Assembly (NCBI GenBank): GCA_030692565.1
Contig: JAUYAO010000034.1
Span: forward strand, 1-64,000
DNA from: Nitrospira sp.
GTDB taxonomy: Bacteria; Nitrospirota; Nitrospiria; Nitrospirales; Nitrospiraceae
Reading direction: 5' to 3'
Length of the DNA stretch: 64,000 nt
Shown: positions 3,244 through 51,783 of the stretch, piece after piece
How positions within the stretch are numbered: position 1 is the first letter of the stretch
Layout: every line of letters starts with the position of its first letter
The notes under the pieces: generated by a model
What the model was told of the DNA's origin: nothing
The model's input: the letters and a program-made list of their open reading frames with translations, nothing else
The model's database searches: none
Position numbers and translations under genes: made by a program

Positions 3244-3375
3244 GATCGAGTCTCGTTCACTTGGTCTCTCATTTCTTGATCAAAACAGATGCACAAGGGG
3301 GAGGCTGTACGGCTACGCGACCGCTGGGTGCATCAAGTGTGAATGCGGAGCGGATAAGCAGTTGTGGAAGGTGCC

Positions 3376-3425
3376 GAACGCCACACGCCGGGAAATGTTG
3401 GACTGCAAGACCTGGCCCCGCTTTT
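3376..3425 (-). repeat. Degenerate family B repeat, copy 3
   Basis: Only the GC-rich half (GAACGCCACACGCCGGGAAAT) and a weak T-rich end are recognisable. It lies about 70 nt past the stop of the minus-strand gene at 3493, as expected for this family. Confidence 0.4.
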
Positions 3426-3492
3426 TCTTTCGGAGGCTGTGCAATGCCTCTGCACCCGCTACTCTGCATAAGAGAAGGGAAAGGAGCCGCAG

Positions 3493-4731
3493 CTAGCCTT
3501 TCATGCCGGCTAACTTGCTCAAATCAAGCTTTTCCAGCACGCCCTTGAGTTCCTCCATCGACACATCAGCTCCTTTGGCCTCCACCACGAAACGCTTCTC
3601 GATCAGGAGTCCCAATTCACCACTGTGGTCACGGGTGTTGTACTTTTCGTACGCCTTGTATCCCCGGAACGTCGTCGTTTTCTCGTAACCGGTCGGGGAG
3701 TCCTTATCAATGTCGTTGTTCGTCCAGGCATAGAGCGCCAGGCTTGCGAACCCGCTCGCGTTACCGATGTCCGAGATGATCACGTCGATGGTCCGGTGAT
3801 CTTCGCCGGTATACCGTGCTTCGGCTTTACTGATCGTCATCCCCAGTGCGGTCGATTTCTCGCCGGAGGCTTCGGCTCGCTGCAGGTTGCCCACCGCCTC
3901 CGGCAGCAAGGCCTTGAGCTGTCGGAAATCGACCGGCTCCACGAGTTTCCCTCCGCTCGCAGCCTGATTGAAGGCTTGCATCACGTTACCTGCCGCCTGG
4001 AATGCGTCGCCAAGGTTTGCCGGTGCGTCCCCGGCCTTGGTGTTTTCACCGGACTGTCCGGCCTTCTCAAGCCCCTTCGCGAAGGATTCGAGGTTCTTGC
4101 CGACCTGCTCGAGTTGTTTGGTCGTTTCTCGTTCTTCCCTGCTTTGGGTCACGGCCATGGGAACACCCACAAACGCGGCGCTGACAGCGCCGATCACCAT
4201 GAAGAGCACGATCGCTGCGATCACGACCGAGATGGTATAGCCCATGGATCGCTCAGGTGGCGATTTCATCAGCACAGGGAGGCCGAGATACAGTAGGTAT
4301 AGCGTGTAGAGTGCCGCCAGAAGCCCCAACACGCCGAGCGCCGGAATGAGATGGAAGATCCCGCCGACCCAGGCGGCCGTCGCCCCGTAGGCTGCCACCT
4401 TCAACGCCTGCATGAGATTGCTGGTGCCGCCGAATGTGGGCGCCAGCGTATTGATAATCAGCGCGAGCACGTAGATGCCGGCCAGCCCGAGCACATAGCT
4501 GACCGCCACTTGTGACAGGAGGCTGGTGAACGACATCCGTATCGTGCCCGCGAACGGCATCTGCACACCGACCACCGACAGGCCGATCAGCATGGCGATC
4601 GGTCCAATCGCGGCCAGCGGCATGATGTACCCGGTGTAAAGAGCCTGCGTGGAGGTCTGTTCAGGATCAATCACCGGCCATTCCGTTTTCGGCTGGAGCA
4701 GAATGTTCTTCACACGCTCGACAATATTCAT
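3493..4731 (-). CDS. Yip1-domain membrane protein
   Basis: The start at the second of two adjacent ATGs (4731) gives the best spacing to GGAGG. Residues 1-200 match the Yip1/YIP family: NIVERVKNILLQPKTEWPVI, then four or five membrane segments including LLSQVAVSYVLGLAGIYVLALI and a GLPVLMKSPPERSMGYT loop. The rest is soluble, mostly helical and charged (EERETTKQLEQVGKNLESFA). Bacterial Yip1 proteins are inner-membrane proteins of unclear role. It forms its own transcription unit. Confidence 0.8.
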   Translation of the reverse strand: MNIVERVKNILLQPKTEWPVIDPEQTSTQALYTGYIMPLAAIGPIAMLIGLSVVGVQMPFAGTIRMSFTSLLSQVAVSYVLGLAGIYVLALIINTLAPTFGGTSNLMQALKVAAYGATAAWVGGIFHLIPALGVLGLLAALYTLYLLYLGLPVLMKSPPERSMGYTISVVIAAIVLFMVIGAVSAAFVGVPMAVTQSREERETTKQLEQVGKNLESFAKGLEKAGQSGENTKAGDAPANLGDAFQAAGNVMQAFNQAASGGKLVEPVDFRQLKALLPEAVGNLQRAEASGEKSTALGMTISKAEARYTGEDHRTIDVIISDIGNASGFASLALYAWTNNDIDKDSPTGYEKTTTFRGYKAYEKYNTRDHSGELGLLIEKRFVVEAKGADVSMEELKGVLEKLDLSKLAGMKG

Positions 4732-5269
4732 CATGTCCCTCCCTTTGCTGGACCGGGCAATATGCCAGGCCGCTCCGCATATAGAACACGGCGGGTGCTC
4801 AGATAATGGCAAATGCGAGTGGTGGAGGAACCAGGATGGAAAGAAAGTCCCGCAGAGATCGGCAATTCACGTCTGTCATGCAGCAGGCTCATCGCGAACG
4901 CTCCGGTTCGAGGAACTGCCACTGGCGGCAAGGCTATCATAGAGGCGAAACAATAGGCTAGCGAGGCGGCGTCCTGCCGGGATCACCCGGGGGCGACAAG
5001 TCCGATTCCGTGACGGGATGGATTGAACGAAGAAACAGGGGCATTCTACTTTTTCAGATCATCTTGGTCTCCGGGTGTCTGGGGTGAGAAGCGGTGAGGG
5101 GTGGAGAAGCGAAGAAGCGAAGAAGCGAAGAAGCCGCCGGACGCCACGCGCCGGGAAATTCAGAATATCCTCGTTCTTTTCTCCCCAAAATCTACACATG
5201 GTTCTTTGCCCGTCTTTTCGTGCCGGTCGTCGATTGAAATAGTATGGACCCTTATATAGACTGCGTTGC
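4732..5269. other. Intergenic gap with an 8-nt tandem repeat and repeat B4
   Basis: This gap separates the divergent Yip1 gene and the small plus-strand gene at 5270. At 5105-5136 the unit AGAAGCGA is repeated three times plus one degenerate copy. Repeat B4 follows directly. No coding sequence can be supported. Confidence 0.5.
5130..5186 (-). repeat. REP-like repeat, family B copy 4
   Basis: CCGGACGCCACGCGCCGGGA is followed by AATTCAGAATAT and a T/C-rich end. Unlike most copies it lies upstream of a plus-strand gene and far from any minus-strand stop codon. Confidence 0.7.
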
Positions 5270-5515
5270 ATGAGAAAACGGTACTCGCCCTCAGAATGGA
5301 TGGCAGCACTTGAGCGGGATCCCGGTCTACGGGGTTTCTCTCCCACAGCTACCGCGAAACGTCTGAATATCAGCGAAGAGGCAGTTGGAGATCTGATATT
5401 GAGCGGAGCGCTCAATGTTGCAGACGTCTATGAAGACGGCGAGGTCGTGAATATCATCATTCCGGATCGCGATATCCAGCGACATGCGGCCAAATCAGCA
5501 GAAGTGAAGCTGTAG
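5270..5515 (+). CDS. Small putative DNA-binding protein (HTH-like)
   Basis: The 81-residue product begins MRKRYSPSEWMAALERDPG. It contains SPTATAKRLNISEEAVGDLI, which reads like a helix-turn-helix of the kind that inserts into DNA, followed by a strand-rich end (VYEDGEVVNIIIPDRDIQRH) that resembles a winged segment. No target is evident. It stands alone between repeats. I cannot name the family; the reading frame is convincing but function is inferred only from pattern. Confidence 0.55.
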   Translation: MRKRYSPSEWMAALERDPGLRGFSPTATAKRLNISEEAVGDLILSGALNVADVYEDGEVVNIIIPDRDIQRHAAKSAEVKL

Positions 5516-6432
5516 AAATAGGGACAGTTGTATTTGTCCTTTCCTGCCTTGAATAGCTCCTGCCCGTGAATATCCTATTCGTTCCTTCTATACGTTCCCC
5601 TGAAATGAGCGCGTCTACCAGCCGAATCACTACGAACACGCCAAAAGGTAGGACGATTCAGTTTACTGCAAAATCGCAGGCGTACCGATCACTCCGGAGG
5701 CAATGGGGGTGAGGCGAGGAAGGCGCCGGACGGCCGCAGGGTTGCTGACTGCGGGTGTCCCTTCAGCCAGCTACGTTCGTGCTCTCGTCGCGTCATCAGT
5801 TCGTGCTGAGCTCGTGTATGGATGGTACGGGTTATGCCGATGCCTATTTGAAAAAAATGAACTAATTCCGGTTGACATGGTTTCTTGAAGAGGAGTAAGG
5901 ATGAAACTGCGCGTGCAGTCGTTCCTGAAGAGGGGGCTGGCGCAAGGCGAGGCTGTCCGCAATCCTTCAGATCACTTCGAAGCCAGGAGGAGGTGGAGAT
6001 GGATAACCTTAGTCCGCCGGACCACCAGGGCCCGCCGAGTGACGGGCGGGCTTCTCGTCAGTCACGCTAGCCGGTTCTCCATCGGCTGTCGCCTTCCCGC
6101 GTAGGGATCACACAAACCGATGAGCCATTGTGGAGAGTCCGGGCCGGTGTGAGGAATATCCACTCAACTCACCCTTCTCCGCTGACGAGCTGCCGTTGTA
6201 ACCATCCTTGAGCGGGTCTTCCCGATCAGCACAAAAGAAAGCCAGTCGGCGTCCTAAGCGCCACACACGGGCGATCTCCTCACTTCCTGCAAGGTCGCCC
6301 GTGCTGCTTCCTTCTTGATCGATCCAGCCGTCTTTGAAGGCAGGCGACCGGTCCCGGTCGTTGCGGCGTCGACGGAGCACGCACGCAGGGCGAGAGCCGA
6401 ACTTCTCATTGCATTGCGAGAAGGAGGTGGTC
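5516..6432. other. Long non-coding stretch before the CBS gene
   Basis: About 900 nt with no recognisable gene. It holds family C copy 2 (5656-5707) running into a family B-like fragment (GAGGCGAGGAAGGCGCCGGA, 5711-5730), and a 9-bp hairpin (CACGGGCGA 6266-6274 with TCGCCCGTG 6295-6303). A 67-codon frame at 5901 has a good ribosome binding site (GAGGAGTAAGG) but an arginine-rich, featureless product, so it is not called as a gene. Confidence 0.45.
5656..5707. repeat. Family C repeat, copy 2
   Basis: It shares GTTTACTGCAAA and ATCACTCCGGAGGCAATGGG with the copy at 880-930. Immediately after it comes part of a family B repeat, so the two may have moved or been captured together. Confidence 0.5.
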
Positions 6433-6886
6433 ATGCGAGTCCATGACGTCATGTCAACCAGCATCGTCACTGCCAGAAAGACGGATTCGGTTCGATCGAT
6501 TGTCATAAAAATGATGAATCGCAATTGCGGGGCCATTCCCGTGATAGACGGAGACGCCCGGCTTATCGGGATGGTGACGCTACGCGACGTCCTGCTGCCG
6601 TTGTATCCTAACTATGGCGAATACATTCATGACAACGTGTCATAGTCGGGATTTTGTCGAAATGGAAGAGGGGTATCCTGAGGCGCTTGGCAGGAAAGTC
6701 GAAGAGATCATGAGTCAGAATCCCCTGACGGTGGCGCCCCACGACCCTGTTTTGGAAGCGGCCTCCTATATGGGGCTCAAGAACTTCCGGCGCATTCCCG
6801 TCGTCGAGAAGGGCATGCTGGTCGGGATGCTCAGCATCGGCGACATCAACCGTGGATTGTTCTTCGAGAAAGGCATGCGAGGCTGA
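6433..6886 (+). pseudogene. CBS-domain pair protein split by a frameshift
   Basis: An ATG at 6433 with AAGGAGGTGG upstream starts the first CBS motif (MRVHDVMSTSIVTARKTDSV ... GAIPVIDG ... GMVTLRDVL). This frame stops at 6645 after YIHDNVS. The next frame continues at once with HSRDFVEMEEGYPEAL and the second CBS motif (VEEIMSQNPLTVAPHDPVLE ... RRIPVVEKG ... GMLSIGDINR), ending at 6886. Removing one base near 6640 would restore a normal protein of about 150 residues. CBS pairs bind adenosyl ligands. It is probably a pseudogene, although a sequencing error cannot be excluded. Confidence 0.8.
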
Positions 6887-13862: not shown

Positions 13863-14513
13863 ATGCCTCGGATTCCACGCGGACAAGTGGCCGGACACGC
13901 CTACCATGTTTTGAATCGGGGGAACGGTGGGGCGATCGTCTTCCATAAAGATGGCGACTACACGGCCTTCCTCGACTTGCTTACTGCCGCGAAATCAAAA
14001 TTCCCCGTCAAAGTGTTCGGCGTCTGCCTGATGCCGAATCATTTCCATCTTGTCGTGCAGCCCGCCACTGAGGCAACGCTGAGTCCATTCATGCAGTGGT
14101 GGATGACGAGCCATGTCCGGCGGTATCACCAGCATTACCGGAGTCATGGACATGTGTGGCAGGGTCGGTTCAAAAGTTTTCCGATTCAGCAAGACAGTCA
14201 TCTCCTCACGGCCCTTCGGTATGTGCTCCGCAATCCAGTTCGTGCGGGTTTAGTCGAGCATGCGATGGACTGGCCCTGGTCCAGTCTGCGCTTCCCACGG
14301 GTGAGTGACTCGTTGCCTGCCGAGATGCCGAACGAGTGGTTGCAATGGATCGATCAGCCGCTCTTTGATCATGAACTGGTCACGTTGCGGACCTGCGTGA
14401 ATCGGCAGCAGCCCTTCGGAAGGGAAGGCTGGCAAGCAAAGATAGCGGAGACGTTGGGGTTGGAATCAACGATGCGGAAGCGGGGGCGGCCGAGGAAGCC
14501 ACTAGAAAAGTAG
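13863..14513 (+). CDS. REP-associated tyrosine transposase (RAYT)
   Basis: The 216-residue protein is a Y1/IS200-like single-strand nuclease of the RAYT group. The metal-binding HFH motif is at residues 60-62 (MPNHFHLVVQP) and the likely catalytic Tyr120 sits in LRYVLRNPVRAGLV; WQGRFKS lies between. The C-terminal tail with GRPRKP is typical of this group. RAYTs cut and join hairpin (REP) DNA. The stop codon lies inside the right inverted repeat. It appears intact, so it could act on the family B repeats here. Confidence 0.9.
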   Translation: MPRIPRGQVAGHAYHVLNRGNGGAIVFHKDGDYTAFLDLLTAAKSKFPVKVFGVCLMPNHFHLVVQPATEATLSPFMQWWMTSHVRRYHQHYRSHGHVWQGRFKSFPIQQDSHLLTALRYVLRNPVRAGLVEHAMDWPWSSLRFPRVSDSLPAEMPNEWLQWIDQPLFDHELVTLRTCVNRQQPFGREGWQAKIAETLGLESTMRKRGRPRKPLEK

Positions 14514-14527
14514 CCTGTCCCCTTTTC
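14505..14527 (-). repeat. Right inverted repeat of the RAYT unit
   Basis: GAAAAGTAGCCTGTCCCCTT and TTC are the inverse of the left end at 13801-13824. The RAYT stop codon (14511-14513) is part of it. Confidence 0.75.
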
Positions 14528-14548
14528 TTGGTTGTCCCCTTTTCTTGG
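14516..14548. repeat. 17-nt tandem duplication at the RAYT/IS3 junction
   Basis: TGTCCCCTTTTCTTGG occurs twice, at 14516-14531 and 14533-14548, separated by one base. The first copy belongs to the RAYT right end. The second abuts the broken IS3 element. It marks the junction between the two mobile elements. Confidence 0.8.
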
Positions 14549-15355
14549 CTCGCGCGTGGGATTGTAGAAGCACTCGATGTAATCGAACACGTCCGCTTTG
14601 GCTTGGTCTCGCGTGCGGTACGTTTTGTTCGCCGTGCGTTCAGTTTTCAACGAGGAGAAGAAGCTCTCCATCGCGGCATTGTCCCAGCAGTTACCGGCTC
14701 GGCTCATGCTACAGGTCACGCCATGGTCAACCAGCAGCCGCTGGAACGGCTCACTGGTGTACTGGCTGCCCCGATCCGAATGATGCAGGACCGCCTCTGG
14801 CTTGCCGCGCCGCCAGATCGCCATCACGAGGGCATCGGTGACGAGTTGCGTGGTCATCGTCGCCTGCATGGACCAGCCGATGACCCGGCGTGAGAACAGG
14901 TCCACGACCGCGGCCACGTAGAGCCAGCCTTCGGCGGTCCAGAGATAGGTGAAGTCGGCGACCCATTTTCGATTGGCCGACGCGGCCGTGAACGTCCGGT
15001 CGAGCACATTCGGCGCGACGGCGTTTGTCGACCGCACGCCAGTATCCAACGGCATCTTCCGGCGCCTGGGGCGGGCGCGCAACGCCGCGTGTCGCATGAG
15101 CCGTTCGATCCGATGTCGGCCGCAGGAGACTCCCTCTGCTAGCAGATCGTGCCAGACACGCCGGGCTCCATAGGTTCGGTCACTGGCGAGAAAGCTGGCT
15201 TGCACCCTCGTCAGCAGCTGATCGTTGGCCCTCGCCCGGGCACTCGGCGATCGGGTTCGCCAGGCATAGAAGCCTGCCCGCGAGACCCCGAGCGCCTCGC
15301 ACAACCATCCCGCCGGCCAGATCCCTCGGGGTGTCGCGATAAAGGCGAACTTCAC
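14549..15355 (-). pseudogene. IS3-family transposase OrfB, 3' end missing
   Basis: From a GTG start overlapping the orfA stop, the protein has the IS3 integrase core with D134 (VADFTYL), D194 (HHSDRGSQYTS) and E230 (NAAMESFFSSLK). The expected ending after the conserved YIECFYNP is lost: from about residue 268 the frame runs into RAYT sequence and stays open only to 14369. The catalytic triad is intact, but about 20 terminal residues and the right end of the element are gone. Confidence 0.85.
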
Positions 15356-15642
15356 AGCGCCTCTTTCGCGAAGTAGGCCGCGGCTTTTTTTAAGATATCG
15401 CGCTCCGCCTTTAGCTTGATGACTTCACGGCGAAGCCGAGCGAGTTCCGCCTGCTCAGGCTTCATCTGCCCCTGGCCCGGAAAGGCCTGTGCCGCGTCGG
15501 CGGCAGACTCCTGCACCCATCGGCGCAACACCGTCCCATGCACGCCCAAATCCCGCGCGGCTTGCGCCACCGTCACCCCGCGCTCCTGGATTAACTTCAC
15601 CGCCTCAATTTTGAACTCGCGCGTAAACTTCCGTCGCTCCAT
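15352..15642 (-). CDS. IS3-family transposase OrfA
   Basis: The 96-residue protein has a helix-turn-helix (EFKIEAVKLIQERGVTVAQA, RDLGVHGTVLRRWV) and a C-terminal leucine-zipper-like helix (LARLRREVIKLKAERDILKK). It binds the element ends and is fused to OrfB by a -1 frameshift. It ends in GTGA overlap with orfB. The gene is intact, but its partner is truncated. Confidence 0.9.
   Translation of the reverse strand: MERRKFTREFKIEAVKLIQERGVTVAQAARDLGVHGTVLRRWVQESAADAAQAFPGQGQMKPEQAELARLRREVIKLKAERDILKKAAAYFAKEAL
15384..15391 (-). promoter_or_regulatory. Programmed -1 frameshift site of the IS3 element
   Basis: On the minus strand the run A-A-A-A-A-A-A-G occurs near the end of orfA (codons for L-K-K-A). 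Seven adenines followed by G are the classical slippery site of IS3 elements. A one-base backward slip here leads from the orfA frame into the orfB frame. Confidence 0.75.
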
Positions 15643-16684: not shown

Positions 16685-16803
16685 CCCCCTTACAATGTGT
16701 CCTCCTATAGCTAACCCCTTGGCATTCTGGGGTGTTTCACCCGCCTTTGCTGAAGCTTCGGCGGGCTCCGGAATGCCGGTGCGATAGACGAGGAGCCTCC
16801 TTC
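16685..16803 (+). promoter_or_regulatory. Structured leader of the first radical SAM gene
   Basis: GGCATTC (16721-16727) pairs with GAATGCC (16771-16777). Inside, GGGTG-TTT-CACCC (16730-16742) and CCCGCC/GGCGGG (16740-16745 with 16760-16765) share bases, so the two inner stems exclude each other. The ribosome binding site is part of a palindrome, AGGAG-C-CTCCT (16790-16800), which could hide it. A near-copy at 15797 keeps the outer stem and this palindrome. This suggests post-transcriptional control; no known riboswitch class is recognised. Confidence 0.55.
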
Positions 16804-18702
16804 ATGCGCATTGAGTACTCGAAGGGTGAACGCGCCTCCAAAGAACTGATTCTCCTGAATCGTCAGAGTTTCGAAGCTTCCAGCGGCCGGAAGATGAAGG
16901 TCATGCTGATCTTCCCGCCGGACTGGTTTCCTTCCGAACCCTATCTCAGTCTTCCCTCCCTTACCGCCGTCCTCCGTCAGGCCGGTCATACCGTCATCCA
17001 AAAAGACATCAACCTCGAAATGTGGGACTGGTACTTCAGCGAGGACTTTTTAAAGAAAGTCCTGCGCCGGGTGCCGCAACAGCTCGACCGGCTCCGGAAG
17101 CTCTCCAAGAAGCGGGATCTGGACGCCAACGAGATGGATTTGCAGCTCGCGCTCTGCGACGTGACCAGGCAGCGGATCGACGAATTGATCAAGAAAGCGG
17201 AGAAGGCGAAGGCGATCATTCGCGGGGAAGTCTTCTACGAAATCGATCAGTTAGAGTGGGCCATTCAAGTATTCCGCGAGGTGACGTCGGTCATTTCGAT
17301 GGTCTATGCCCCGGCGCGGATCTGCATGCCGCCGATGGAGACGGATCTGTCCTATAAGGTCTTCGTCTCTTCCGAAGTCATCGACGCAGTGAACGATACC
17401 CAGGTGAACATCTACCGGGATGTGTTCGACCATTTGGTGAAGCCGGCGATCGAGGCGGAGCAGCCGGATGTGATCGGGATCTCGATCGTCCTGCAGCAGC
17501 AGATGTTCTCCACCATGACCTTCTGCGCCCTGATCAAACAGCACTTCCCCAACATCCACATCACGATCGGCGGCAATACGGTCACGCGCCTGCGCGATGT
17601 GCTGCCGGAGTCGCCGCTGTTCCAATACTTCGACAGTGCCGTAGTCTATGAAGGGGAGACGGCTTTCGTGCAACTGGTGTCGGCTGTGGGGGCGAAGCGG
17701 AGCCTGGCCGACGTGCCGAATACGATCTACAAGGACGAGACCGGCGTCCATACCTCGGAGACGAGCTTTGCGGAAGATATGCATGCGCTGCCGCCGCCGG
17801 ATTTCGACGGGCTGCCGCTGGAGAAGTACTTCGTCCCAACGAAGATTCTGCCCTATCTGGCGACGCGCGGCTGCTACTGGGGCCGCTGCGAGTTCTGCGA
17901 CCATGGTGAGGGCTATACCGCCGGATACCGGAGCAAGAAGATTCAGGACATTCTCGGGGAGATCCAGCATCTGCGCGACAAATACGGGGCGAAGCATTTC
18001 CACTTCACCGACGAGTCATACCCGCCGGCTTTGTTCCGCAAGCTGGCGCGCGGCTTGATCGATACGAAAATGGACATCGTCTGGACGACGCACATGCGGT
18101 TCGAGAAGAGCCTGCTGGAAGATCAGGTCTGGCAGGATGCGAAGGAGTCGGGCTGCAAGTATCTCCACTTCGGCTATGAGTCGGGGAACGAGCGGGTGCT
18201 GAAGCTGATGGACAAGGCGACGACGACCGCCATCATGACCGAGCATCTCAAGCGCACGGCGGAGGCCGGCATCTGGAACCACTGCATGGGCTTCTTCGGC
18301 TTTCCCGGCGAGACGAAGGAAGAGGCCTGGTCGTCGGTGGAGTTTCTGGAGCAGAACAAAGACTATGTGCATTCGCTGGGGTTCGGCACGTTCGACCTGG
18401 GCCGGCATAATCCCGTGGCGAAGCATCCGGAGAAGTGGGGCGTGACCGCCTACAAGAATCCCGAATGGGATCTGGCGCTCGACTACTACTACACGGTGAA
18501 GAACGGGATGAGCATCGAAGAAGCCGAGCGGGTGTTTCAGCAATTCGAACAGAATCATTACGCGGGCTGGGACCTGCGGCTCTACATCAGGGAATACATT
18601 TTTCTCTATATTGCGAAGTTCGGGCTGGAGAAGTTGCGGGATCTGCAATATCAGTCAATGAAAACGGCGGGGGTGACGCCGACGCTGGCTGGAAAGATGT
18701 GA
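16804..18702 (+). CDS. Cobalamin-binding-domain radical SAM protein 1
   Basis: The 632-residue protein starts at the ATG after GAGGAG. Residues 15-65 open a B12-binding Rossmann half (MKVMLIFPPDWFPSEPYLSL, DINLEMWDW, without the base-off histidine). A helical insertion of over 100 residues follows, then the second half (PDVIGISIVLQQQMFS, ITIGGNTVTRL). The radical SAM barrel carries Cys357, Cys362 and Cys365 (GCYWGRCEFCDHG), a CX4CX2C motif where CX3CX2C is usual. FGYESGNERVLKLMDKA and GFFGFPGETKEEA are standard later motifs. Substrate unknown. A close paralogue follows at 18935. Confidence 0.85.
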   Translation: MRIEYSKGERASKELILLNRQSFEASSGRKMKVMLIFPPDWFPSEPYLSLPSLTAVLRQAGHTVIQKDINLEMWDWYFSEDFLKKVLRRVPQQLDRLRKLSKKRDLDANEMDLQLALCDVTRQRIDELIKKAEKAKAIIRGEVFYEIDQLEWAIQVFREVTSVISMVYAPARICMPPMETDLSYKVFVSSEVIDAVNDTQVNIYRDVFDHLVKPAIEAEQPDVIGISIVLQQQMFSTMTFCALIKQHFPNIHITIGGNTVTRLRDVLPESPLFQYFDSAVVYEGETAFVQLVSAVGAKRSLADVPNTIYKDETGVHTSETSFAEDMHALPPPDFDGLPLEKYFVPTKILPYLATRGCYWGRCEFCDHGEGYTAGYRSKKIQDILGEIQHLRDKYGAKHFHFTDESYPPALFRKLARGLIDTKMDIVWTTHMRFEKSLLEDQVWQDAKESGCKYLHFGYESGNERVLKLMDKATTTAIMTEHLKRTAEAGIWNHCMGFFGFPGETKEEAWSSVEFLEQNKDYVHSLGFGTFDLGRHNPVAKHPEKWGVTAYKNPEWDLALDYYYTVKNGMSIEEAERVFQQFEQNHYAGWDLRLYIREYIFLYIAKFGLEKLRDLQYQSMKTAGVTPTLAGKM

Positions 18703-18810
18703 TTTGAATAGTGCTGAGTCCTGGGTGCTGAGTGCTGAATGATCTGAACAGACACTTGACGCATGACGAGGTCGGACAAGGGACGAGGCAGTTGAGCTGG
18801 TCCCAAAATC

Positions 18811-18888
18811 CCTCCCCTTTGTAAGGGGGGGCTAGGAGGGGTAGAAGCCCGGTCTCTACCTCCCCTTCCCCTTCTTACAAAGGAGGGG
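18811..18888 (+). terminator. Long inverted repeat between the two radical SAM genes
   Basis: CCTCCCCTTTGTAAG (18811-18825) pairs with CTTACAAAGGAGGGG (18874-18888), GGAGGGG (18835-18841) with CCTCCCC (18859-18865), and GTAGA with TCTAC at the tip. The result is a hairpin of nearly 80 nt. Its position after the first gene suggests a terminator or mRNA-stabilising end, but it has no U-tract and may be another repeat family. Confidence 0.55.
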
Positions 18889-18934
18889 AAAGAATACCAG
18901 TGACGCGTGATGAGCAGGGAAATAGAAAGAATAT

Positions 18935-20887
18935 ATGAGTAGCTCCGGCCTCGTACAGATAGACGGTTTGTCGCCGATCAAGAAAGAGGATCGGAAGACC
19001 TCGAAGGTGATGCTGCTGTTTCCGCCCGAGTGGGTGCCGACGGCGCCCTATCTGGCGTTGCCGTCGCTGACGGCGGTGCTGCGGGAGGCCGGGCACACGG
19101 TTGTACAGCGCGACATCAACATCGAGATGTACGACCACTTCTTCACCATGGAGTTCCTGATCTGGGTGAAGGCTCGATTGGGCATGCAGCTCAAGCCGCT
19201 GCAGGACAAGGAAAAGGCCGGGACGCTTACGGATCGCGAAGCGGATCAGAAAGCCGTGGTCGAGCAGGCCTATGCGGTGGATGTGTTCGATCTGGCCGAG
19301 CGGGCGGAAGATGCCAAGCTGGTTGTCCGCGGCGAACGGTTCTACGAAGCCGAAAAACTGGAGCTGGCGCTCAATACCTTCCGTGAGGCGATGCAGTACA
19401 TCTCCGCCGCCTACTATCCGGCCTCGCTCGTCTTCTATCCGATGGAAAGCAACCTGGGTTATCGTCCGGGAGTGTCGAAGGAAGTCTTCGCCTGTCTCGA
19501 CGACGAACAGGTGAACGTCTACCGCGATATCTGCAATCAGCTGGTGCTGCCCTCCGTGAGCAAAGAGAAGCCGGATGTGGTCGGTATCTCCATCGGCACG
19601 CAGATGCAGCTGCTGGCGGGCCTGACCTTCTGCAAGATGATCAAGGAGACGTTCCCGCACATCAAGGTCGTGGTCGGGGGGAACGTCATCACACGGTTGC
19701 AGGAAGAACTGCCGCATCACGAGCGGTTCTTCACCGAGGTGTTCGACGCGGCGATCCTCTACGAAGGCGAACATGCGCTGCTCTGGTATATCGAGGCGCT
19801 GAACGGGCAGCGGGCGCTGGAGTCGGTGCCGAATCTCATGTATCGCCATGCCGACGGGGTGAAGCAGAGCAAGGAAGTCTATACGGAGAAGACGGCGGCG
19901 CTGCCGCTGCCGGATTTTGACGGCCTGCCGCTGGATCATTACTTTGTCCCGGAGCGGATCATTCCCTATCTCGCGACGCGCGGCTGCTACTGGGGCCGCT
20001 GCACGTTCTGCGACCACGGGCAGGGCTACTTCGATCAATATCGCGGGATGACGGCGCAGCATGTGATCGAGCAGGTGACGGCACTGCGCGACAAGTACCA
20101 GTGCAAACATTTCCTCTTCTCCGACGAATCCTATCCGCCGGCGCTCTTCAAGAAAGTCTCGCAGCTACTGGTGGAGCAGAACGTCGGGATCAAGTGGACG
20201 ACGCTCATCCGTTTTGAAGAAACCTTACAGGACCAGGCGATCTGGGATCTGGCTGCGAAGGCCGGCTGCTGCACCCTCTATTACGGCATGGAGTCGGCGA
20301 ACGAGCGTGTCTTGAACCTCATGGATAAGCATGCGAAGAAGAGCGTGATTCAGAACAATCTCCACCAGGCCTCGAAGGCGGGGATCTGGAACCACGTGAT
20401 GGCTTTCTACGGCTTCCCCGGCGAAACGAAAGACGAGGCGCTGGAAACGCGGCAGTTCGTTATCGACAATCAGCCGGTCATTCACTCCGTGGAACTCTTC
20501 TACTTCGTGGCCTACCGGCACACGCCGATGGTGCGCAATCCGGAGAAGTTCGGCATCACGATCCACAAGCAGGAGGAGTACGACCTGCCGCTGGACTACT
20601 ACTACACGCTGAACGAGCCGAGCACCCTGTCGTGCCTCGATGCGATGCAGATGTGCGAAGAGTTCTACAAGAACGATTTCCAGCCCTGGGCCGTGCGGGT
20701 GAATTCCCGCGAGCACGTGTTCCTCTACATCTCCAAGTTCGGTACGAACAAGCTGCCGCAGATTTATGCGAAGCAGCAGGTCGCGGTGGGCGCGGCGGAA
20801 GGTGTGTCAGGCCTCGTCACCTGGCCGGTGGCGCAGTCCGAGGGGAACGAAGGGATGGCGCGGGTTACGAGCCACGACGCGGGTTAA
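18935..20887 (+). CDS. Cobalamin-binding-domain radical SAM protein 2
   Basis: The 650-residue paralogue of the protein at 16804 has the same domain order: VMLLFPPEWVPTAPYLALPS and DINIEMYDHFF, a long helical insertion, PDVVGISIGTQMQLLAG and VVVGGNVITRL, then the barrel with Cys351, Cys356 and Cys359 (GCYWGRCTFCDHG). YYGMESANERVLNLMDKH and AFYGFPGETKDEA follow. The pair probably acts on related substrates or in sequence. The ribosome binding site is weak. A family A repeat begins right after the stop codon. Confidence 0.85.
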   Translation: MSSSGLVQIDGLSPIKKEDRKTSKVMLLFPPEWVPTAPYLALPSLTAVLREAGHTVVQRDINIEMYDHFFTMEFLIWVKARLGMQLKPLQDKEKAGTLTDREADQKAVVEQAYAVDVFDLAERAEDAKLVVRGERFYEAEKLELALNTFREAMQYISAAYYPASLVFYPMESNLGYRPGVSKEVFACLDDEQVNVYRDICNQLVLPSVSKEKPDVVGISIGTQMQLLAGLTFCKMIKETFPHIKVVVGGNVITRLQEELPHHERFFTEVFDAAILYEGEHALLWYIEALNGQRALESVPNLMYRHADGVKQSKEVYTEKTAALPLPDFDGLPLDHYFVPERIIPYLATRGCYWGRCTFCDHGQGYFDQYRGMTAQHVIEQVTALRDKYQCKHFLFSDESYPPALFKKVSQLLVEQNVGIKWTTLIRFEETLQDQAIWDLAAKAGCCTLYYGMESANERVLNLMDKHAKKSVIQNNLHQASKAGIWNHVMAFYGFPGETKDEALETRQFVIDNQPVIHSVELFYFVAYRHTPMVRNPEKFGITIHKQEEYDLPLDYYYTLNEPSTLSCLDAMQMCEEFYKNDFQPWAVRVNSREHVFLYISKFGTNKLPQIYAKQQVAVGAAEGVSGLVTWPVAQSEGNEGMARVTSHDAG

Positions 20888-20888
20888 C

Positions 20889-21010
20889 AGGATGATCAAA
20901 ACGTCATCTAACAAGGCCGCAGGGAGCACGGTGACTGAGGCCTAGCCTCGGGGCTAGGTCGCAGGGAGACGTACGACTGAGAACGCCGTTAGGTGGCGTT
21001 TTCATCATCC
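20889..21010 (+). repeat. Family A hairpin element, copy 2
   Basis: It starts 1 nt after the stop of the second radical SAM gene. Arms: AGGATGATCAAAACG (20889-20903) and CGTTTTCATCATCC (20997-21010). An inner hairpin CCTAGCC/GGCTAGG replaces the usual GTACCC/GGGTAC. The right arm also encodes the last residues and stop of the J-like gene on the other strand. Confidence 0.8.
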
Positions 21011-21252
21011 GGCACGAGGACGGCGGTGAGGAGAGCATACGAGGCTTCGACCAGCTTGGTCATTTCTTCGGCCTTCTTGTAGGCTTCCATGTACTTCTTG
21101 GGGTTGTTGGTCAGATTCGAGTAGCGGGCGGGATTCCAGGTATAGAGCTGCACGCGCTTGGCCCGTTCCAGGTCTTCGGTGGTGACGGGGAGCGTGAGAT
21201 CCAGAATCTTCAGTGCCTGGGCGATTTCTTTGGGGATGGTCTCGTCAGTCAT
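20989..21252 (-). CDS. J-domain-like small protein lacking HPD
   Basis: The 87-residue helical protein (AQALKILDLTLPVTTEDLER, AKRVQLYTWNPARYSNL, EEMTKLVEASYALLTAV) follows the J-domain pattern of helix II, loop and helix III. In the loop the H-P-D motif needed to stimulate DnaK is replaced by N40-P41-A42, so it should not act as a normal co-chaperone. It lies opposite to and between radical SAM genes 2 and 3. The tail DDENAT is encoded by the family A repeat. A role with the radical SAM enzymes is only a guess. Confidence 0.6.
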   Translation of the reverse strand: MTDETIPKEIAQALKILDLTLPVTTEDLERAKRVQLYTWNPARYSNLTNNPKKYMEAYKKAEEMTKLVEASYALLTAVLVPDDENAT

Positions 21253-21286
21253 ACCGTTACTTTAGCTGGAGCAAGGTCGTCAATCA

Positions 21287-22525
21287 ATGCCAATGCCCCT
21301 CCCGATGCTTCAGGCCGCTCCGATCTTCACGAAGAAGGATTATCGCGATGTGCTGCGCCGTGAGATGGACGCGGGGAAGATCCCGCTGAGCCTCGGGCGC
21401 GATTGCCCGGTGAAGTGCGAGTTCTGCTACGAGCTGGATCACTCCTACCGCGAAACGCTCGATCCGCCCAAGACCTCCGACGAGGACTGGAAATACATTC
21501 TCGATTACATCAGCAAGAAGCCGACCGACCCGAAGCAGTTCTGGTGCCTGGGCGGGAACGAGTTCATGGAATGGACCGATCTCTTCCTCCATCCCAAGGC
21601 GATGGAGTGGGTCGAGGACTTTCTGAAGTACACGGACAAGAGCATCCAGTTCTTCACTGTCGGCTTCGTGCATGTCCCGAAGATTCATCAGCTGGTCGCG
21701 CGATATCCTGGACGGATCAACTTCGAACTTTCGGTCATCACCCTCAGCGAGTATCGCCAGCGGCTCATGCCGCACGCGCCCTCGGTGAAGCACCTCATGA
21801 AGGTCCTCGACGGTCCGGCGGTGTCGTCGGCCAATTTCTATACCTTCGATGCGAATACGATGTCGAAAGATGCGGTGGAGATTTCCAAGATCAATCAGAA
21901 GTGCGTGCTCTGGATGGGCACGCTCACGCCGGTGCGCGGCCTCAAGGAGGAGACGGCCGGCCTCATGCGGCAGGGCCGGAAGCATCTGGCGGAGGAAGCG
22001 CTGCGGATCTACGATGCGGCCTTGCCGAATCTCCAGACGATCCACACGGAGGCCTATATCACGGCCTTTCTGAGCAGGAAACGGATCATCAGTCTCTTCG
22101 ATTCGCTGGAATTGGAGAAGAAGGATACGCTGGTCACGGGCTGGAGCGTGTCGAAGATTCTCTCGATGTACCGGAAGAACAAGGCGCGGGTGCTTTACGT
22201 GCCGAATGCGATGCTGAGCGGGGATTCGGATTGCACGGTGTTGCTGACGTTCGACGACATCGCGCGGCGGTTGACTACCGAGAAGACGATCCACGTGCCC
22301 AAGTGCATCATGCAATCGGGCCGCGGTCCCTACACGGACATCACCGGCGTGACGCTGGAACAGTTTACGGAAAAGACCGGCGTGAAGGTCAAAGTGCTGC
22401 ACAAGGTCGATACGCGGTTTGCCAACGAGCAGCTCTATCGCAACGGGTCGTTGCAGAATTATGTCGAGAATTATGTGCGCAATCCGATGGTGCAGTCGTA
22501 TGAAGCATTTCCACGCCCTGCATAG
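21287..22525 (+). CDS. Radical SAM protein 3
   Basis: The 412-residue protein has the standard cluster motif C40-P-V-K-C44-E-F-C47 close to its N-terminus (LSLGRDCPVKCEFCYELDHS), and LGGNEFMEWTDLFLHPKAME in the second strand/helix unit. It lacks a B12 domain and SPASM-type cysteines. The C-terminal 150 residues (VTGWSVSKILSMYRKNKARV, TDITGVTLEQFTEKTGVKVK) form an additional domain I cannot identify. The start may also be the ATG at 21305. It is probably part of the same pathway as the two paralogues upstream. Confidence 0.8.
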   Translation: MPMPLPMLQAAPIFTKKDYRDVLRREMDAGKIPLSLGRDCPVKCEFCYELDHSYRETLDPPKTSDEDWKYILDYISKKPTDPKQFWCLGGNEFMEWTDLFLHPKAMEWVEDFLKYTDKSIQFFTVGFVHVPKIHQLVARYPGRINFELSVITLSEYRQRLMPHAPSVKHLMKVLDGPAVSSANFYTFDANTMSKDAVEISKINQKCVLWMGTLTPVRGLKEETAGLMRQGRKHLAEEALRIYDAALPNLQTIHTEAYITAFLSRKRIISLFDSLELEKKDTLVTGWSVSKILSMYRKNKARVLYVPNAMLSGDSDCTVLLTFDDIARRLTTEKTIHVPKCIMQSGRGPYTDITGVTLEQFTEKTGVKVKVLHKVDTRFANEQLYRNGSLQNYVENYVRNPMVQSYEAFPRPA

Positions 22526-22527
22526 CA

Positions 22528-22607
22528 GCATGTTGAAAAAGGCTTCTGGCGGCGTTCTCGGTCGTACGTCTCCCTGCGGCCTTGCCACAAGACCTTTTTG
22601 AACATGC
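22528..22607 (+). repeat. Family A hairpin element, copy 3
   Basis: It begins 2 nt after the stop codon of radical SAM 3. The arms GCATGTTGAAAAAGG (22528-22542) and CCTTTTTGAACATGC (22593-22607) pair at 14 of 15 positions; the only mismatch is G opposite G. The inner part is short and lacks the GTACCC hairpin. Confidence 0.8.
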
Positions 22608-22646
22608 CGGGGAGGTTATCGTCAGGATTTATAGGAGTAGCTACAA

Positions 22647-23576
22647 ATGCCTGATCGCCGCTCGCTGAAGTTCTACCAAGCCGATGTGTTTACCTCAGAG
22701 CCGTTCGGGGGCAATCCCGTTGCCGTGTTTCCCGAGGCCGACGGGCTCTCCGATGATCAACTCCAGCAGATCGCCCGGGAAATGAACCTCTCCGAGACGG
22801 TTTTTGTGTTCCCTCCGACCGATCAGGCGGCGGTGGTCCGGTTGCGGATTTTTACGCCGACGCAGGAACTGCCTTTTGCCGGCCATCCGGTGATCGGCAC
22901 GTTTTATCTCCTGGCGCAGCTCGGACTTGTGCCGCTCACCGGCGCGGTGACCCGCCTGCTCTACGAGTGCAACATCGGCTTGTTTCCGGTGGAGTTGCGC
23001 GGGGTGGGGAAGCAGATTGAGCATGTGGTCATGTCGCAGCCGAAGCCGGAGTTTCTCGACGCGGTGGACGATGAGGAAGACTTCTACAAGCTGGCCATAT
23101 CGCTCGGGCTCCCGAAGTATGCGGTGGCCGAGGCCAAGTCGCCGATCGAGGTAGTGTCGACGGGGTTGCCGGTCCTCATCCTGCCGATCCGGACGCTGAC
23201 GGCGATCCGGTCGATCCGGCCCGATCCCTCTGCCATTACCGATCTCTGCGGTCGCTTCGGCGCCAACGGCATCATGGTCTTCACGACGGTCACGGTTGAG
23301 CCGGACTCGACGGTCCATACCCGCATGTTTGCGCCGGCCATCGGCATTCTGGAAGATCCCGCCACCGGCAGCGCGAGCGGCGCCTTGGGGGCCTATCTGG
23401 TGCATCACCGTATTATTGACGTGAAGCCGACGACCGAGATCGTCTCGGAGCAGGGCTACGAGATCGAGCGGCCCTCGCGCATTCTCATCCAGGTCGATTC
23501 GACCGACGGAGTCATTCAGGCAGTCAAGGTCGGGGGGGAGTGTGTGATGGTGGTGGAGGGCGAGCTGAAGTTCTAA
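22647..23576 (+). CDS. PhzF-family isomerase/epimerase-like protein
   Basis: The 309-residue protein has the PhzF hallmarks: FTSEPFGGNPVAVF, catalytic Glu50 in NLSETVFVFPP, ELPFAGHPVIGTFYLL, and DPATGSASGALGAYLVHHR. The fold is two diaminopimelate-epimerase-like halves. Family members isomerise or epimerise small acids; PhzF itself acts in phenazine synthesis, but no other phenazine genes are here. It follows the radical SAM group, with a family A repeat before and after it. The substrate is unknown. Confidence 0.85.
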   Translation: MPDRRSLKFYQADVFTSEPFGGNPVAVFPEADGLSDDQLQQIAREMNLSETVFVFPPTDQAAVVRLRIFTPTQELPFAGHPVIGTFYLLAQLGLVPLTGAVTRLLYECNIGLFPVELRGVGKQIEHVVMSQPKPEFLDAVDDEEDFYKLAISLGLPKYAVAEAKSPIEVVSTGLPVLILPIRTLTAIRSIRPDPSAITDLCGRFGANGIMVFTTVTVEPDSTVHTRMFAPAIGILEDPATGSASGALGAYLVHHRIIDVKPTTEIVSEQGYEIERPSRILIQVDSTDGVIQAVKVGGECVMVVEGELKF

Positions 23577-23701: not shown

Positions 23702-23801
23702 CCGGGACGTGATTTTTACGATCAGTATTTCTCTCAAGCTTCTCCTAATTGCTTCCGATCTAGTTCTATAGGGTAGGGTGTGGTCTAGCAAGGAGCTGAA
23801 T

Positions 23802-24830
23802 ATGAAAGCTGTCTTATTTCGCGCGCATGGTGGACCGGATAAGTTGAGCTATGAAGATATGCCGACGCCGACGATCGGGCCTGATGAGGTGTTGGTCAAG
23901 GTCAAAGCCTGCGCGCTGAACCATTTGGATATCTGGATCAGGCAGGGGAATCCGGCTTATCCCATGCCGATGCCGCATGTGTCAGGATCGGACGTGGCGG
24001 GCGTCGTGGAGCAAGTCGGCGCACAGGCCGATCACGTGACGGTCGGGCAGCGCGTGTTCATCTCGCCCGGGATCAGCTGTTGGAAGTGCGAACAGTGCCT
24101 GGCAGGACGGGACAACTTCTGCCGCTCCTACAGCTTGCTGGGGGCGATGATGCACGGCGGTTATGCCGAGTATGTGAAGGTGCCGTTCCGCAATGTGATG
24201 CCGATTCCCGAGAACCTCTCGTTCGAACAGGCGGCGGCGTTCCCGCTCGTCTCGGTGACCGCGTCGCATATGTTGTTTGCCCAGGCCGGTCTCCAACATG
24301 GCGAGACGGTGTTGATCATGGGCGGCGGGAGCGGCGTAGGGACCATGGCGATTCAAATGGCCAAGCTCGCCGGCGCACGTGTGATCACAACGGTCGGATC
24401 GGATGACAAGATCCCCAAGGCGGTGGTGCTCGGCGCCGATGCGGTCATCAACCATACGAAGGAGAAAGTGGCAGATCGCGTGAAGCTCCTGACCGAAGGC
24501 CATGGCGTGGATGTGGTGATCGAGCATATCGGGCCGGAGGTGTGGGAGAGCTGTCTGGCGTCGCTGGCGAAAGGCGGGCGCTTGATTACTTGTGGCGCGA
24601 CGACCGGTGCTGAGGTGAAGGTGGATCTCCGGTATGTCTATTCCCGCCAGTACACGATCAAGGGCTCCTACATGGGCACGCGGGCAGAACTGGTGAAGGT
24701 GGCAGAGTTGATGGGCCAGAAGCGGCTGATTTCTGTCATCGACCGCACGTATCCGCTTCAAGAGGCTCGCGCGGCGCAAGAGCAGATGCTTAGCCGCAAG
24801 TTCTTCGGCAAAATCGTCCTGTTGGTGTAA
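23802..24830 (+). CDS. Zinc-type alcohol dehydrogenase / quinone oxidoreductase
   Basis: The ATG at 23802 has AAGGAG 6 nt upstream. The 342-residue medium-chain dehydrogenase has the GroES-like N-terminus (CALNHLDIWIRQGNPAYPMP, HVSGSDVAGVVEQVG) and a structural-zinc loop with four cysteines (CWKCEQCLAGRDNFC). The Rossmann part carries VLIMGGGSGVGTMAIQMAKL. It is an NAD(P)H-dependent oxidoreductase; the substrate cannot be told from sequence. It is flanked by family A repeats. Confidence 0.88.
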   Translation: MKAVLFRAHGGPDKLSYEDMPTPTIGPDEVLVKVKACALNHLDIWIRQGNPAYPMPMPHVSGSDVAGVVEQVGAQADHVTVGQRVFISPGISCWKCEQCLAGRDNFCRSYSLLGAMMHGGYAEYVKVPFRNVMPIPENLSFEQAAAFPLVSVTASHMLFAQAGLQHGETVLIMGGGSGVGTMAIQMAKLAGARVITTVGSDDKIPKAVVLGADAVINHTKEKVADRVKLLTEGHGVDVVIEHIGPEVWESCLASLAKGGRLITCGATTGAEVKVDLRYVYSRQYTIKGSYMGTRAELVKVAELMGQKRLISVIDRTYPLQEARAAQEQMLSRKFFGKIVLLV

Positions 24831-25267: not shown

Positions 25268-25702
25268 ATGTCTACCGTATCCAAGATCATGAGCAAACAT
25301 CCCAAAACCGTCGGGCCGGCGGTGTCGATCGTAAGTGCGGCCAAGAAAATGCGGACGGCCCGAGTCGGGTCGTTGCTGGTGAAGAAGGGCAAGCAGTTGG
25401 TGGGCATTGTGACGGATACGGATATTGTCCGCCGGGCAGTGGCCACGAGTAAGCCGCTCGGGAAGCTGACAGTCGAGAAGATTATGACAGCGCCCCTGTG
25501 CACGATCGAGGGGAGTGAGTCGATAGACGATGCTCAGGAAATGATGGGCGACCTGGGTGTGCGCCACCTGGCCGTGACCAAGGGCGGGGAGATTGTCGGC
25601 GTGGTCTCGGTGCGGGATGTGATGTTGTCGTACCGGAAGTATGCGCAGTCGAACATCTCGACGGAAATCCGTTATTCGGAACCGAAGATCGGGCAGGACT
25701 GA
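25268..25702 (+). CDS. CBS-domain pair protein
   Basis: The 144-residue protein is a tandem CBS pair: KIMSKHPKTVGPAVSIVSAA ... GIVTDTDIVRRAVA, then VEKIMTAPLCTIEGSESIDD ... GVVSVRDVMLSYRK. Such pairs bind AMP, ATP or SAM and modulate partners. No enzyme domain is attached. GAGGGAGGGAAATC precedes the start. It is one of three CBS-pair genes in the window (also 6433, broken, and 51385). Confidence 0.9.
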   Translation: MSTVSKIMSKHPKTVGPAVSIVSAAKKMRTARVGSLLVKKGKQLVGIVTDTDIVRRAVATSKPLGKLTVEKIMTAPLCTIEGSESIDDAQEMMGDLGVRHLAVTKGGEIVGVVSVRDVMLSYRKYAQSNISTEIRYSEPKIGQD

Positions 25703-46610: not shown

Positions 46611-47414
46611 ATGGCCGTAGTCTGCTTCATGGTGACGATGGGATTGTACTTCGTCGCGACCATTTCATTTCTTGCCTATCTATTGCGGCGCTCTGAAGCC
46701 CTGTCAAAAGTCTCTCTGGCCATTACCGCGGCAGGGTTTGTGATGCATACCCTCGCACTGGTTGCGCGGATGGTCGGGAGTTCTGCTGCCGCGCCTCCGA
46801 GTGTCCATGAGGCGCTCTCGTTCTTCTCCTGGATGCTCATTCTAGTATTTCTCGCCGTCGAGTTCCGCCACCGGATCCACGTATTAGGTTCTTTCATTGT
46901 TCCGCTTGCGCTGGTGTCTCTCATCTCAGCCGCGGCCTTGCCCGATACGGCTCCGACCCTGCAGCCGATGTTCCGAACGCTCTGGCTCCACGTCACCTTG
47001 AGCATGTTGGGGACGGTGGGTTTTGCCGTCGCGTTCGTTGCGGGTGTGATGTATCTCATCCAAGACCGCCTTCTCAAGTCGAAACGGTTCAACGTGTTGT
47101 ATGCCAAGCTGCCGGCTCTGGATTTTCTTGACCATCTGAACCAGCAATCAATCATTCTCGGGTTTCCGCTCCTCACGCTCGGGATCATTACCGGTGCGAT
47201 TTCCGCGGAGTTTGCCAAGGGGGCCTATGTGAGTTGGAACCCCGAACAAACCTGGGCGCTGGTGACCTGGTTATTCTACTTTGTCGTGCTTCTTGGACGT
47301 CTGACCGTGGGGTGGCGCGCGAAGCGGGCGGCCTACTTAACCGTAATCGGGTTCGCGGGCGTCATTTTGACGCTGATTGGCGTGGTCCTCAAGAGCTACG
47401 GGACGGTGTCGTGA
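46611..47414 (+). CDS. CcsA/HemX-like cytochrome c assembly membrane protein
   Basis: The 267-residue protein has eight hydrophobic segments, including MVTMGLYFVATISFLAYLL and MLILVFLAVEFRHRIHVLGS. The conserved WNPEQTWALVTWLFYFVVLL is the tryptophan-rich (WWD) signature of heme handlers. Heads the run into hemA with a 1-nt gap, the usual hemX-hemA order. It may deliver heme to cytochromes or help control GluTR. Confidence 0.88.
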   Translation: MAVVCFMVTMGLYFVATISFLAYLLRRSEALSKVSLAITAAGFVMHTLALVARMVGSSAAAPPSVHEALSFFSWMLILVFLAVEFRHRIHVLGSFIVPLALVSLISAAALPDTAPTLQPMFRTLWLHVTLSMLGTVGFAVAFVAGVMYLIQDRLLKSKRFNVLYAKLPALDFLDHLNQQSIILGFPLLTLGIITGAISAEFAKGAYVSWNPEQTWALVTWLFYFVVLLGRLTVGWRAKRAAYLTVIGFAGVILTLIGVVLKSYGTVS

Positions 47415-47415
47415 G

Positions 47416-48804: not shown

Positions 48805-48826
48805 AACTGATGTAGGAGTGAGACCT

Positions 48827-51339: not shown

Positions 51340-51384
51340 CGGTGTGATGACGGGCAGATACACAGCAAAAGGGAGGAGTATCCA

Positions 51385-51777
51385 ATGGTTCCTGTGAAAT
51401 CGTTCATGATTCCTCGAGAGAAATTTGTCACCGTGGCCCGTGATACCGACGCCCAGACGGCGGCGCGGATTATGCGTGATCGCGGGATCGGCAGCTTGTT
51501 CATTACCAACGACAAAGAGATTATCGGTATCGTGACCGACACGGACATGATGCGCCGGGTGGTGGCGTCGGGGTCGGATGCGACGAAGGCGACGGTGGAG
51601 CAGATCATGTCGGCTCCGATCATGACGATCGAGGAGAGCAAGACGCTGCTGGATGCCAACGACCTGATGGCTCAGGCGCATGTGCGCCACCTGGGCGTGA
51701 CGCGCGAGGGGAAGTTGGTCGGTGTGATTTCTGTTCGTGATTTGGTGGTCTTTCTGACGAATTTGCCAAGGAAGTAG
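51385..51777 (+). CDS. CBS-domain pair protein inside the heme operon
   Basis: The 130-residue protein is a CBS pair (VKSFMIPREKFVTVARDTDA, GIVTDTDMMRRVVASGSDAT, VEQIMSAPIMTIEESKTLLD, GVISVRDLVVFLT). It is preceded by GGGAGGAG and sits 45 nt after cobA-hemD and 6 nt before hemB. It resembles the protein at 25268. Its position suggests nucleotide- or SAM-linked control of tetrapyrrole flow, but this is inference. Confidence 0.9.
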   Translation: MVPVKSFMIPREKFVTVARDTDAQTAARIMRDRGIGSLFITNDKEIIGIVTDTDMMRRVVASGSDATKATVEQIMSAPIMTIEESKTLLDANDLMAQAHVRHLGVTREGKLVGVISVRDLVVFLTNLPRK

Positions 51778-51783
51778 GATTGT

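Follow-up and report, generated by a model that had tools for sequence, protein, structure and literature searches.

What do two paralogous cobalamin-binding radical S-adenosylmethionine (SAM) proteins do in Nitrospira, and do they act together with the genes beside them? The question is raised by a five-gene block in a 64,000-nucleotide stretch of Nitrospira sp. DNA (the window; assembly GCA_030692565.1, contig JAUYAO010000034.1, positions 1 to 64,000), which lies on contig C34 of the source genome (G000; 4.17 Mb, 60 contigs). A sequence-only reading had taken these genes for one possible new pathway, plausibly a cofactor, lipid or natural-product modification. Nitrite oxidoreductase (NXR) drives nitrite oxidation in nitrification, complete ammonia oxidation (comammox) and anaerobic ammonium oxidation (anammox), and makes most biological nitrate; to our knowledge, its maturation is poorly known. 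Here, we report that the family of the two paralogues, A and B, is nearly restricted, among the matches listed, to NXR-bearing lineages, and that relatives of B and of a third paralogue, D, are physically linked to nxr genes in three phyla. It is fairly probable, in our judgment, that A and B serve nitrite oxidation.

A and B as predicted cobalamin-dependent radical SAM enzymes

The two genes at the head of the block are as follows.

16804..18702, plus strand: A, class-1 cobalamin-binding radical SAM protein of 632 amino acids (aa), with CX4CX2C, PF02310 and PF04055
18935..20887, plus strand: B, paralogue of A, cobalamin-binding radical SAM protein of 650 aa, with PF02310 and PF04055

The start of A was set to 16804 (not 16732): its orthologues open with MR(I/V)xY(S/T/N)KG. 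The five genes that the sequence-only reading had placed together were all found at 16804-23576, and A and B are paralogous cobalamin-domain radical SAM proteins as it had claimed, with 45.5% identity across 606 aa. Each scores above the Pfam cut-offs for the B12-binding model PF02310 (A, 42.3 bits; B, 37.2; cut-off 32.1) and for the Radical_SAM model PF04055 (61.1 and 56.7; cut-off 29.5). The 4Fe-4S cluster motif is CX4CX2C where CX3CX2C is usual, and its cysteines are invariant across A, B and D types (C351, C356 and C359 in B). B was modelled (predicted local distance difference test score, pLDDT, 84.3), and the fold of A was taken from its 46% identity to B. In fold comparison the B model matched OxsB (Z 21.6), TsrM (20.3), the related AprD4 (20.1), MgmA (19.6), CysS (18.7) and TokK (17.7), with alignments spanning residues 16-632, nearly the full length. 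The top Foldseek match was MgmA (PDB 9ccb; E 3.5e-14), for which the Z of 19.6 extends over 379 residues. The model thus gives B, and through identity A, a predicted class-1 cobalamin radical SAM fold.

The best curated NCBIfam scores were with TIGR03975 for A and TIGR04479 for B. TIGR03975, a C-methyltransferase model for ribosomally synthesized and post-translationally modified peptides (RiPPs), gave 131.1 bits for A and 113.0 for B (cut-off 281.85); TIGR04479, the PhpK P-methyltransferase model, gave 128.8 and 145.8 (cut-off 600); and TIGR04014, the MgmA model, gave 62.2 and 48.7 (cut-off 360). Models of BchE, HpnJ and BzaD scored weakly with A and B, far under their cut-offs. Membership of the RiPP and PhpK families was therefore rejected for A and B, and none of A, B and D matched a characterised family. 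The sequence-only reading would have been undone by paralogues falling inside a characterised family; all curated scores came under the cut-offs. Judged from domains, motif and fold class, A and B belong to an uncharacterised cobalamin-dependent radical SAM family and are predicted to bind cobalamin and to cleave SAM.

It is very unlikely that A and B are maturases of a RiPP or a related peptide natural product in the manner of their closest curated families (TIGR03975, ApyD). TIGR03975 is the top curated model for A, and three more distant relatives lie beside a peptidase-type exporter in a genome of another Nitrospirota family (G150); the scores of A and B, however, are below half of the cut-off, the conserved neighbourhood is without exporter, protease or precursor-like peptide, and near-universal presence across an order does not resemble that of a natural-product cluster. 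The G150 locus itself (L107:593-11165) has three B12-type radical SAM genes in tandem and, after them, an HlyD-like gene and a peptidase-type ABC exporter, and looks like an undescribed RiPP cluster.

Distribution of A and B in relation to NXR

NxrB was not matched by Pfam PF14711 in the source genome; nxrA was located through PF00384 and nxrB was then read beside it, giving the NxrB query at L121:6890-8179 with the adjoining NxrA at 3358-6804. Of the 270 genomes of the class, 193 have A/B at E<=1e-120, and every one of these belongs to one of three families (f1-f3) of a single order. NxrB was found in 140 of the same 270, only in these three families. A further family of the order (f40) lacks NxrB, A/B and D alike in its four genomes. 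One NXR-negative Nitrospirales family, UBA2166, is known from the literature (PMC12342949), and f40 is probably that family.

A scan of 84,980 species with the A/B cluster motif returned at least 119 stretches, a census to be read as a sample. Among the matches listed, to which the following counts and identities refer, 118 of 119 stretches come from Nitrospirales, Nitrospinota, anammox bacteria or one further bacterium with an A-type gene (66% identical to A); the lone exception, from Myxococcus dinghuensis, is just 29-31% identical. Nitrospinota carry one B-type gene each (50-55% to B), and Scalindua/Brocadiaceae one A-type gene (61-64% to A). The tree places the anammox sequences within the A clade, the Nitrospinota sequences as sister to B, and the anammox D sequences with D of Nitrospirota; support is 1.0 for each clade. 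NxrB was present in 10 of 15 outside genomes checked: the five of anammox type without exception (among them the further A-type bacterium), four of the eight Nitrospinota genomes, and one Nitrospirales genome under a wrong label. Among the matches listed, then, the A/B family is near-restricted to NXR-bearing lineages.

Several contigs in this census deserve a separate remark. Three (L167, L228, L149) have titles at odds with their content: two titled Nitrospinota hold Nitrospirales-type genes 70-75% identical to B, L167 also with C, J and PhzF, and one titled 'Nitrosospira' holds A/B genes. On anammox contigs L183 and L200, the A-type gene has near it a gene for a membrane-segment-bearing DnaJ-domain protein and an HtpG gene; this may be an echo of the J gene described below, or chance.

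Paralogue D and nxr gene clusters

D is the third full-length paralogue in the source genome (597 aa, 32-35% identical). It is flanked on one side by an NxrC-like heme subunit (PF09459) and a TorD/NarJ-type chaperone, and on the other by a membrane protein, a TPR protein and a TatA-like protein, the last read by eye. D was found in 21 of 21 Nitrospirales genomes tested (69-99% identity), and its gene order within this NxrC/TorD/Tat (twin-arginine translocation) cluster is the same in all three families. The surrounding gene content matches the NITMOv2_3614-3631 cluster, which has been proposed as diagnostic of nitrite oxidation in Nitrospirales; the text of that paper makes no mention of radical SAM or B12 (PMC12342949).

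In Brocadiaceae S225 (L241) and Scalindua (L244), one strand carries nxrC, nxrB, an unknown gene, TorD, a further protein, nxrA, D and a 4Fe-4S ferredoxin, D lying directly 3' of nxrA and 5' of the ferredoxin; the anammox D is 46% identical to Nitrospira D over 596 aa. This arrangement agrees with scal00868-00861, the Scalindua profunda cluster, in whose description the last two genes go without comment (PMC3655542). From gene order, and not from their own sequence, we infer that the published NITMOv2 and scal clusters contain D. Kustd1699 was considered as the D of Kuenenia and was ruled out, being described as a blue copper protein (PMC11897245). Upstream of the nxr and D genes of L241 lie a histidine kinase and a sigma-54-type response regulator; a matching sigma-54-type promoter was sought 5' of A and B, and none was found nearby.

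In the third phylum, a Nitrospina contig (L249) has a B-type gene 6.7 kb from nxrB. A ferredoxin stands beside the B-type gene and an accessory protein beside nxrB, both of the same families as at the other nxr loci, so that the two are common to nxr loci of three phyla. The accessory protein (L249:1442-2608, L241:6896-7969, L096:14356-15387) is 340-390 aa long and without a Pfam match, and the Nitrospira copy ends with two CxxC pairs. D- and B-type relatives are therefore physically linked to nxr genes in three phyla, and it is this linkage, together with the family's independent presence in Nitrospinota and in anammox bacteria, that gives the association with NXR its weight. Distribution and neighbourhood point to NXR in place of the cofactor, lipid or natural-product modification that the sequence-only reading had called plausible.

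If, instead, A and B modify a small molecule (a porphyrin, quinone, lipid or corrinoid) that NXR lineages happen to share, then the genes would simply have travelled with nitrifier genes, with no action on NXR. We regard this as unlikely, though not remote. Many B12-type radical SAM enzymes do have small-molecule substrates, and OxsB and TsrM rank high among the fold matches of B; BchE, HpnJ and BzaD give weak scores, A/B lie away from nxr in Nitrospirales, and some NXR-positive genomes are without A/B. Yet the scores of the small-molecule families fall far under their cut-offs, linkage of D and B types to nxr genes extends over three phyla, and the lateral pattern of A and B matches the NXR-bearing lineages.

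A fourth, more distant B12-type radical SAM paralogue was seen at L073:1913-4090 (725 aa), 5' of a peroxiredoxin-like gene, and is also present in most Nitrospirales genomes tested.

Conservation of the gene block in Nitrospirota

Downstream of A and B, the following features complete the block and open the wider conserved segment.

20989..21252, minus strand: J, predicted degenerate J-domain protein, 87 aa; convergent with B and divergent from C
21287..22525, plus strand: C, radical SAM protein, probably class-2 (Mmp10/DUF512-like) by fold matches, 412 aa, with CX3CX2C
22647..23576, plus strand: PhzF-family protein, 309 aa (TIGR00654); a syntenic companion whose functional link is doubtful
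23778-24830, plus strand: zinc alcohol dehydrogenase-like (ADH) gene (Pfam), in the wider conserved segment, lost in some relatives
25268-25702, plus strand: CBS-domain gene (Pfam), in the wider conserved segment, lost in some relatives

The order A-B-J(minus)-C-PhzF-ADH-CBS-MoaB-like(minus) is kept over two families. Of 296 phylum genomes, 92 have a J orthologue, and all 92 belong to one order; C, searched in the same 296, occurs in 58 genomes of that order, with one weak match outside (29% identity). Most genomes of the same genus do not have C, and in many of the genus (L051-L053), as in L068, J and PhzF stand without it between them. ADH and CBS are gone from L061, L066 and L068, where A-B-J-PhzF is intact. 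G283, a genome of f3, has A and B in tandem, with B ending at a contig edge that faces a J-bearing edge, which fits A-B-J adjacency; C is on a contig other than those of A/B and J. Conservation of sequence and order over three families excludes chance, and A-B-J(-C)-PhzF is ancestral synteny across Nitrospirales. Because C, ADH and CBS drop out in relatives, and A-B-J adjacency fits even G283, A-B-J is the most conserved unit, with C and PhzF as frequent neighbours. The genes do not scatter in relatives, where scattering would have told against the sequence-only reading: A-B-J-PhzF stay together throughout Nitrospirales, usually with C.

Whether the five genes are one functional unit is a different matter. 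It may be that A and B are a pair of their own, and that J, C, PhzF, ADH and CBS are mere neighbours on the segment; we give this a substantial chance, somewhat short of even. The synteny runs past PhzF to ADH, CBS, MoaB-like and further genes, their order kept, so the position of PhzF may be plain synteny. C is missing in much of the genus and, in G283, lies on a separate contig from A/B and J. At the loci of the Nitrospinota and anammox A/B relatives, no PhzF, C or J was found adjoining, C and J not having been searched in the whole genomes. The single pathway drawn from all five genes in the sequence-only reading is not supported. On the other side, A-B-J-PhzF stays intact without ADH and CBS in the three loci named, the facing contig ends of G283 agree with A-B-J adjacency, and C probably belongs by fold to the same enzyme class as A and B.

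Just 5' of A, at 13863-15642, lie a minus-strand IS3-type transposase pair and a transposase of the REP-associated type, so that the left flank of the block is unlike that of relatives. Elsewhere in the window, tetrapyrrole-like open reading frames at 47377-52755 were read by eye as hemA, hemC, a fused uroporphyrinogen methyltransferase and hemB. A search of the whole window for RNA elements and riboswitches returned a tRNA at 44300 as its sole match.

J, C and PhzF proteins

The J protein of the window, taken alone, matched no family. The DnaJ Pfam model did not match it either, and gave weak matches (E 0.001 to 0.1) in 4 of 22 orthologues; a profile of J against PDB J domains reached E 0.005. 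At the HPD position the window protein has NPA; among the aligned orthologues, HPD is kept in L064 only and the others have NPA, NPS, TPR, HPH or HPA. The J-domain-like protein expected from sequence is thus partly borne out, as a degenerate domain that still has HPD in L064 and has lost it in the window. J is a real gene, as its orthologues within one order attest, with a predicted degenerate J domain. J was also considered as a RiPP precursor and rejected on its J-domain core.

C agrees with the third radical SAM protein of a different type that had been proposed. Its CX3CX2C is invariant in 18 of 18 orthologues, while its scores on the Radical_SAM model (21.3 bits; cut-off 29.5) and on the DUF512 model PF04459 (13.4 bits; cut-off 25) are under the cut-offs, and a profile of C found no match among PDB sequences at E<=0.1. 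The structure model has a pLDDT of 61.6, with the C-terminal part mostly under 60. Its PDB fold matches at E<=0.001 are Mmp10 structures only. The best, with Mmp10, has Z 13.3 over 304 residues at a root-mean-square deviation of 6.8, the C-terminal domain being modelled at low confidence; the match to the Pyrococcus DUF512 protein 9cg2 has Z 11.0 over 272 residues. Both reach well past the radical SAM core. DUF512 is a cobalamin-binding domain (PMC11659888), and DUF512 proteins have been termed class 2 (PMC13331322). Since the folds match and DUF512 binds cobalamin, C is probably a class-2 (Mmp10/DUF512-like) cobalamin radical SAM enzyme.

The PhzF assignment is secure: 275.5 bits on TIGR00654 (cut-off 76.2) and 247.3 on PF02567 (cut-off 27) make the protein a bona fide family member, as first read. 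Its place in the block is probably that of a mere syntenic neighbour.

A proposed role in NXR maturation

We propose that the A/B/D family accompanies the NXR of Nitrospira, Nitrospina and anammox bacteria, and that A, B and D together with C methylate NXR or a partner, a tentative proposal to which we assign slightly less than even probability. The methylase role is suggested by analogy, because Mmp10 (class 2) and MgmA (class 1) methylate methyl-coenzyme M reductase. Each enzyme would cleave SAM at its 4Fe-4S cluster, and a methyl group carried on cobalamin would be passed to an unactivated carbon of NXR, or of a protein or cofactor that NXR needs, in the cytoplasm and ahead of Tat export. 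C would add a methylase of the Mmp10/DUF512 class, J may aid folding or docking, and the ferredoxin of the nxr clusters is a possible electron source. That the reaction is the carbon methylation of a protein is, taken by itself, doubtful. The fullest form of the proposal, in which NXR or an essential partner carries carbon-methyl (or related) marks set by A, B, D and C (C in Nitrospirales), enzymes that Nitrospirota, Nitrospinota and Scalindua-like anammox bacteria would have acquired laterally with NXR, is on balance unlikely.

Several observations weigh against a role for the family in NXR maturation. A/B lie outside the nxr cluster in Nitrospirales, and their confinement to three related families is what is expected of any gene gained on that branch. 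Six related genomes (G218, G263, G361, G363, G364, G365) are NXR-positive without A/B, so A/B are not strictly required for NXR everywhere; D is present in G218, G263 and G365, the three of these that were checked. G304, which lies outside the order and gave no NxrB match, carries a D relative beside a purC-like gene, away from nxr. Four of the eight Nitrospinota genomes with a B-type gene showed no NxrB, possibly through poor assembly of multi-copy nxr. In Kuenenia, the gene adjoining nxrA encodes the blue copper protein (cupredoxin) (PMC11897245).

If the link is true, it suggests that B12 is needed to build the nitrite-oxidising machinery, and an overlooked helper step would be added to a key reaction of the nitrogen cycle. 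Even with another substrate, the family would be a new cross-phylum marker of nitrite-oxidising and anammox lineages. NXR has already been purified from Kuenenia (PMC8387239).

Comparison with known systems

In the literature covered, which leaves aside most subscription papers and supplementary tables, cobalamin radical SAM enzymes were not found described in nxr gene sets, and the novelty of the family in these sets is claimed against that literature only. The published clusters NITMOv2_3614-3631 and scal00868-00861 resemble what is found here in that their equivalents hold D, by NxrC/TorD or after nxrA; they differ from the setting of A and B in that no B12 radical SAM protein is described in them and the Nitrospirales A/B genes lie elsewhere. 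PhpK-type (TIGR04479) and TIGR03975 enzymes have the same domain order as A and B and are their best curated models, but the scores of 113-146 bits stand against cut-offs of 600 and 281.85, and no phosphonate or RiPP gene context is present. Mmp10 and DUF512 proteins (PDB 7qbs-7qbv, 9cg2) are like C in fold, in length (~410 aa) and in CX3CX2C, and unlike it in the PF04459 score and the PDB sequence search given above. MgmA, the methyl-coenzyme M reductase glutamine C-methyltransferase, modifies a key enzyme of energy metabolism (PMC11796369). A and B are set apart from it by their low MgmA-model scores, a longer N-terminal region and different organisms; B shares with it the class-1 cobalamin radical SAM type, with MgmA as its top Foldseek match. 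If the proposed role is true, the A/B/D family, with C in Nitrospirales, would be the nitrite-oxidation counterpart of the modification of methyl-coenzyme M reductase by Mmp10 and MgmA.

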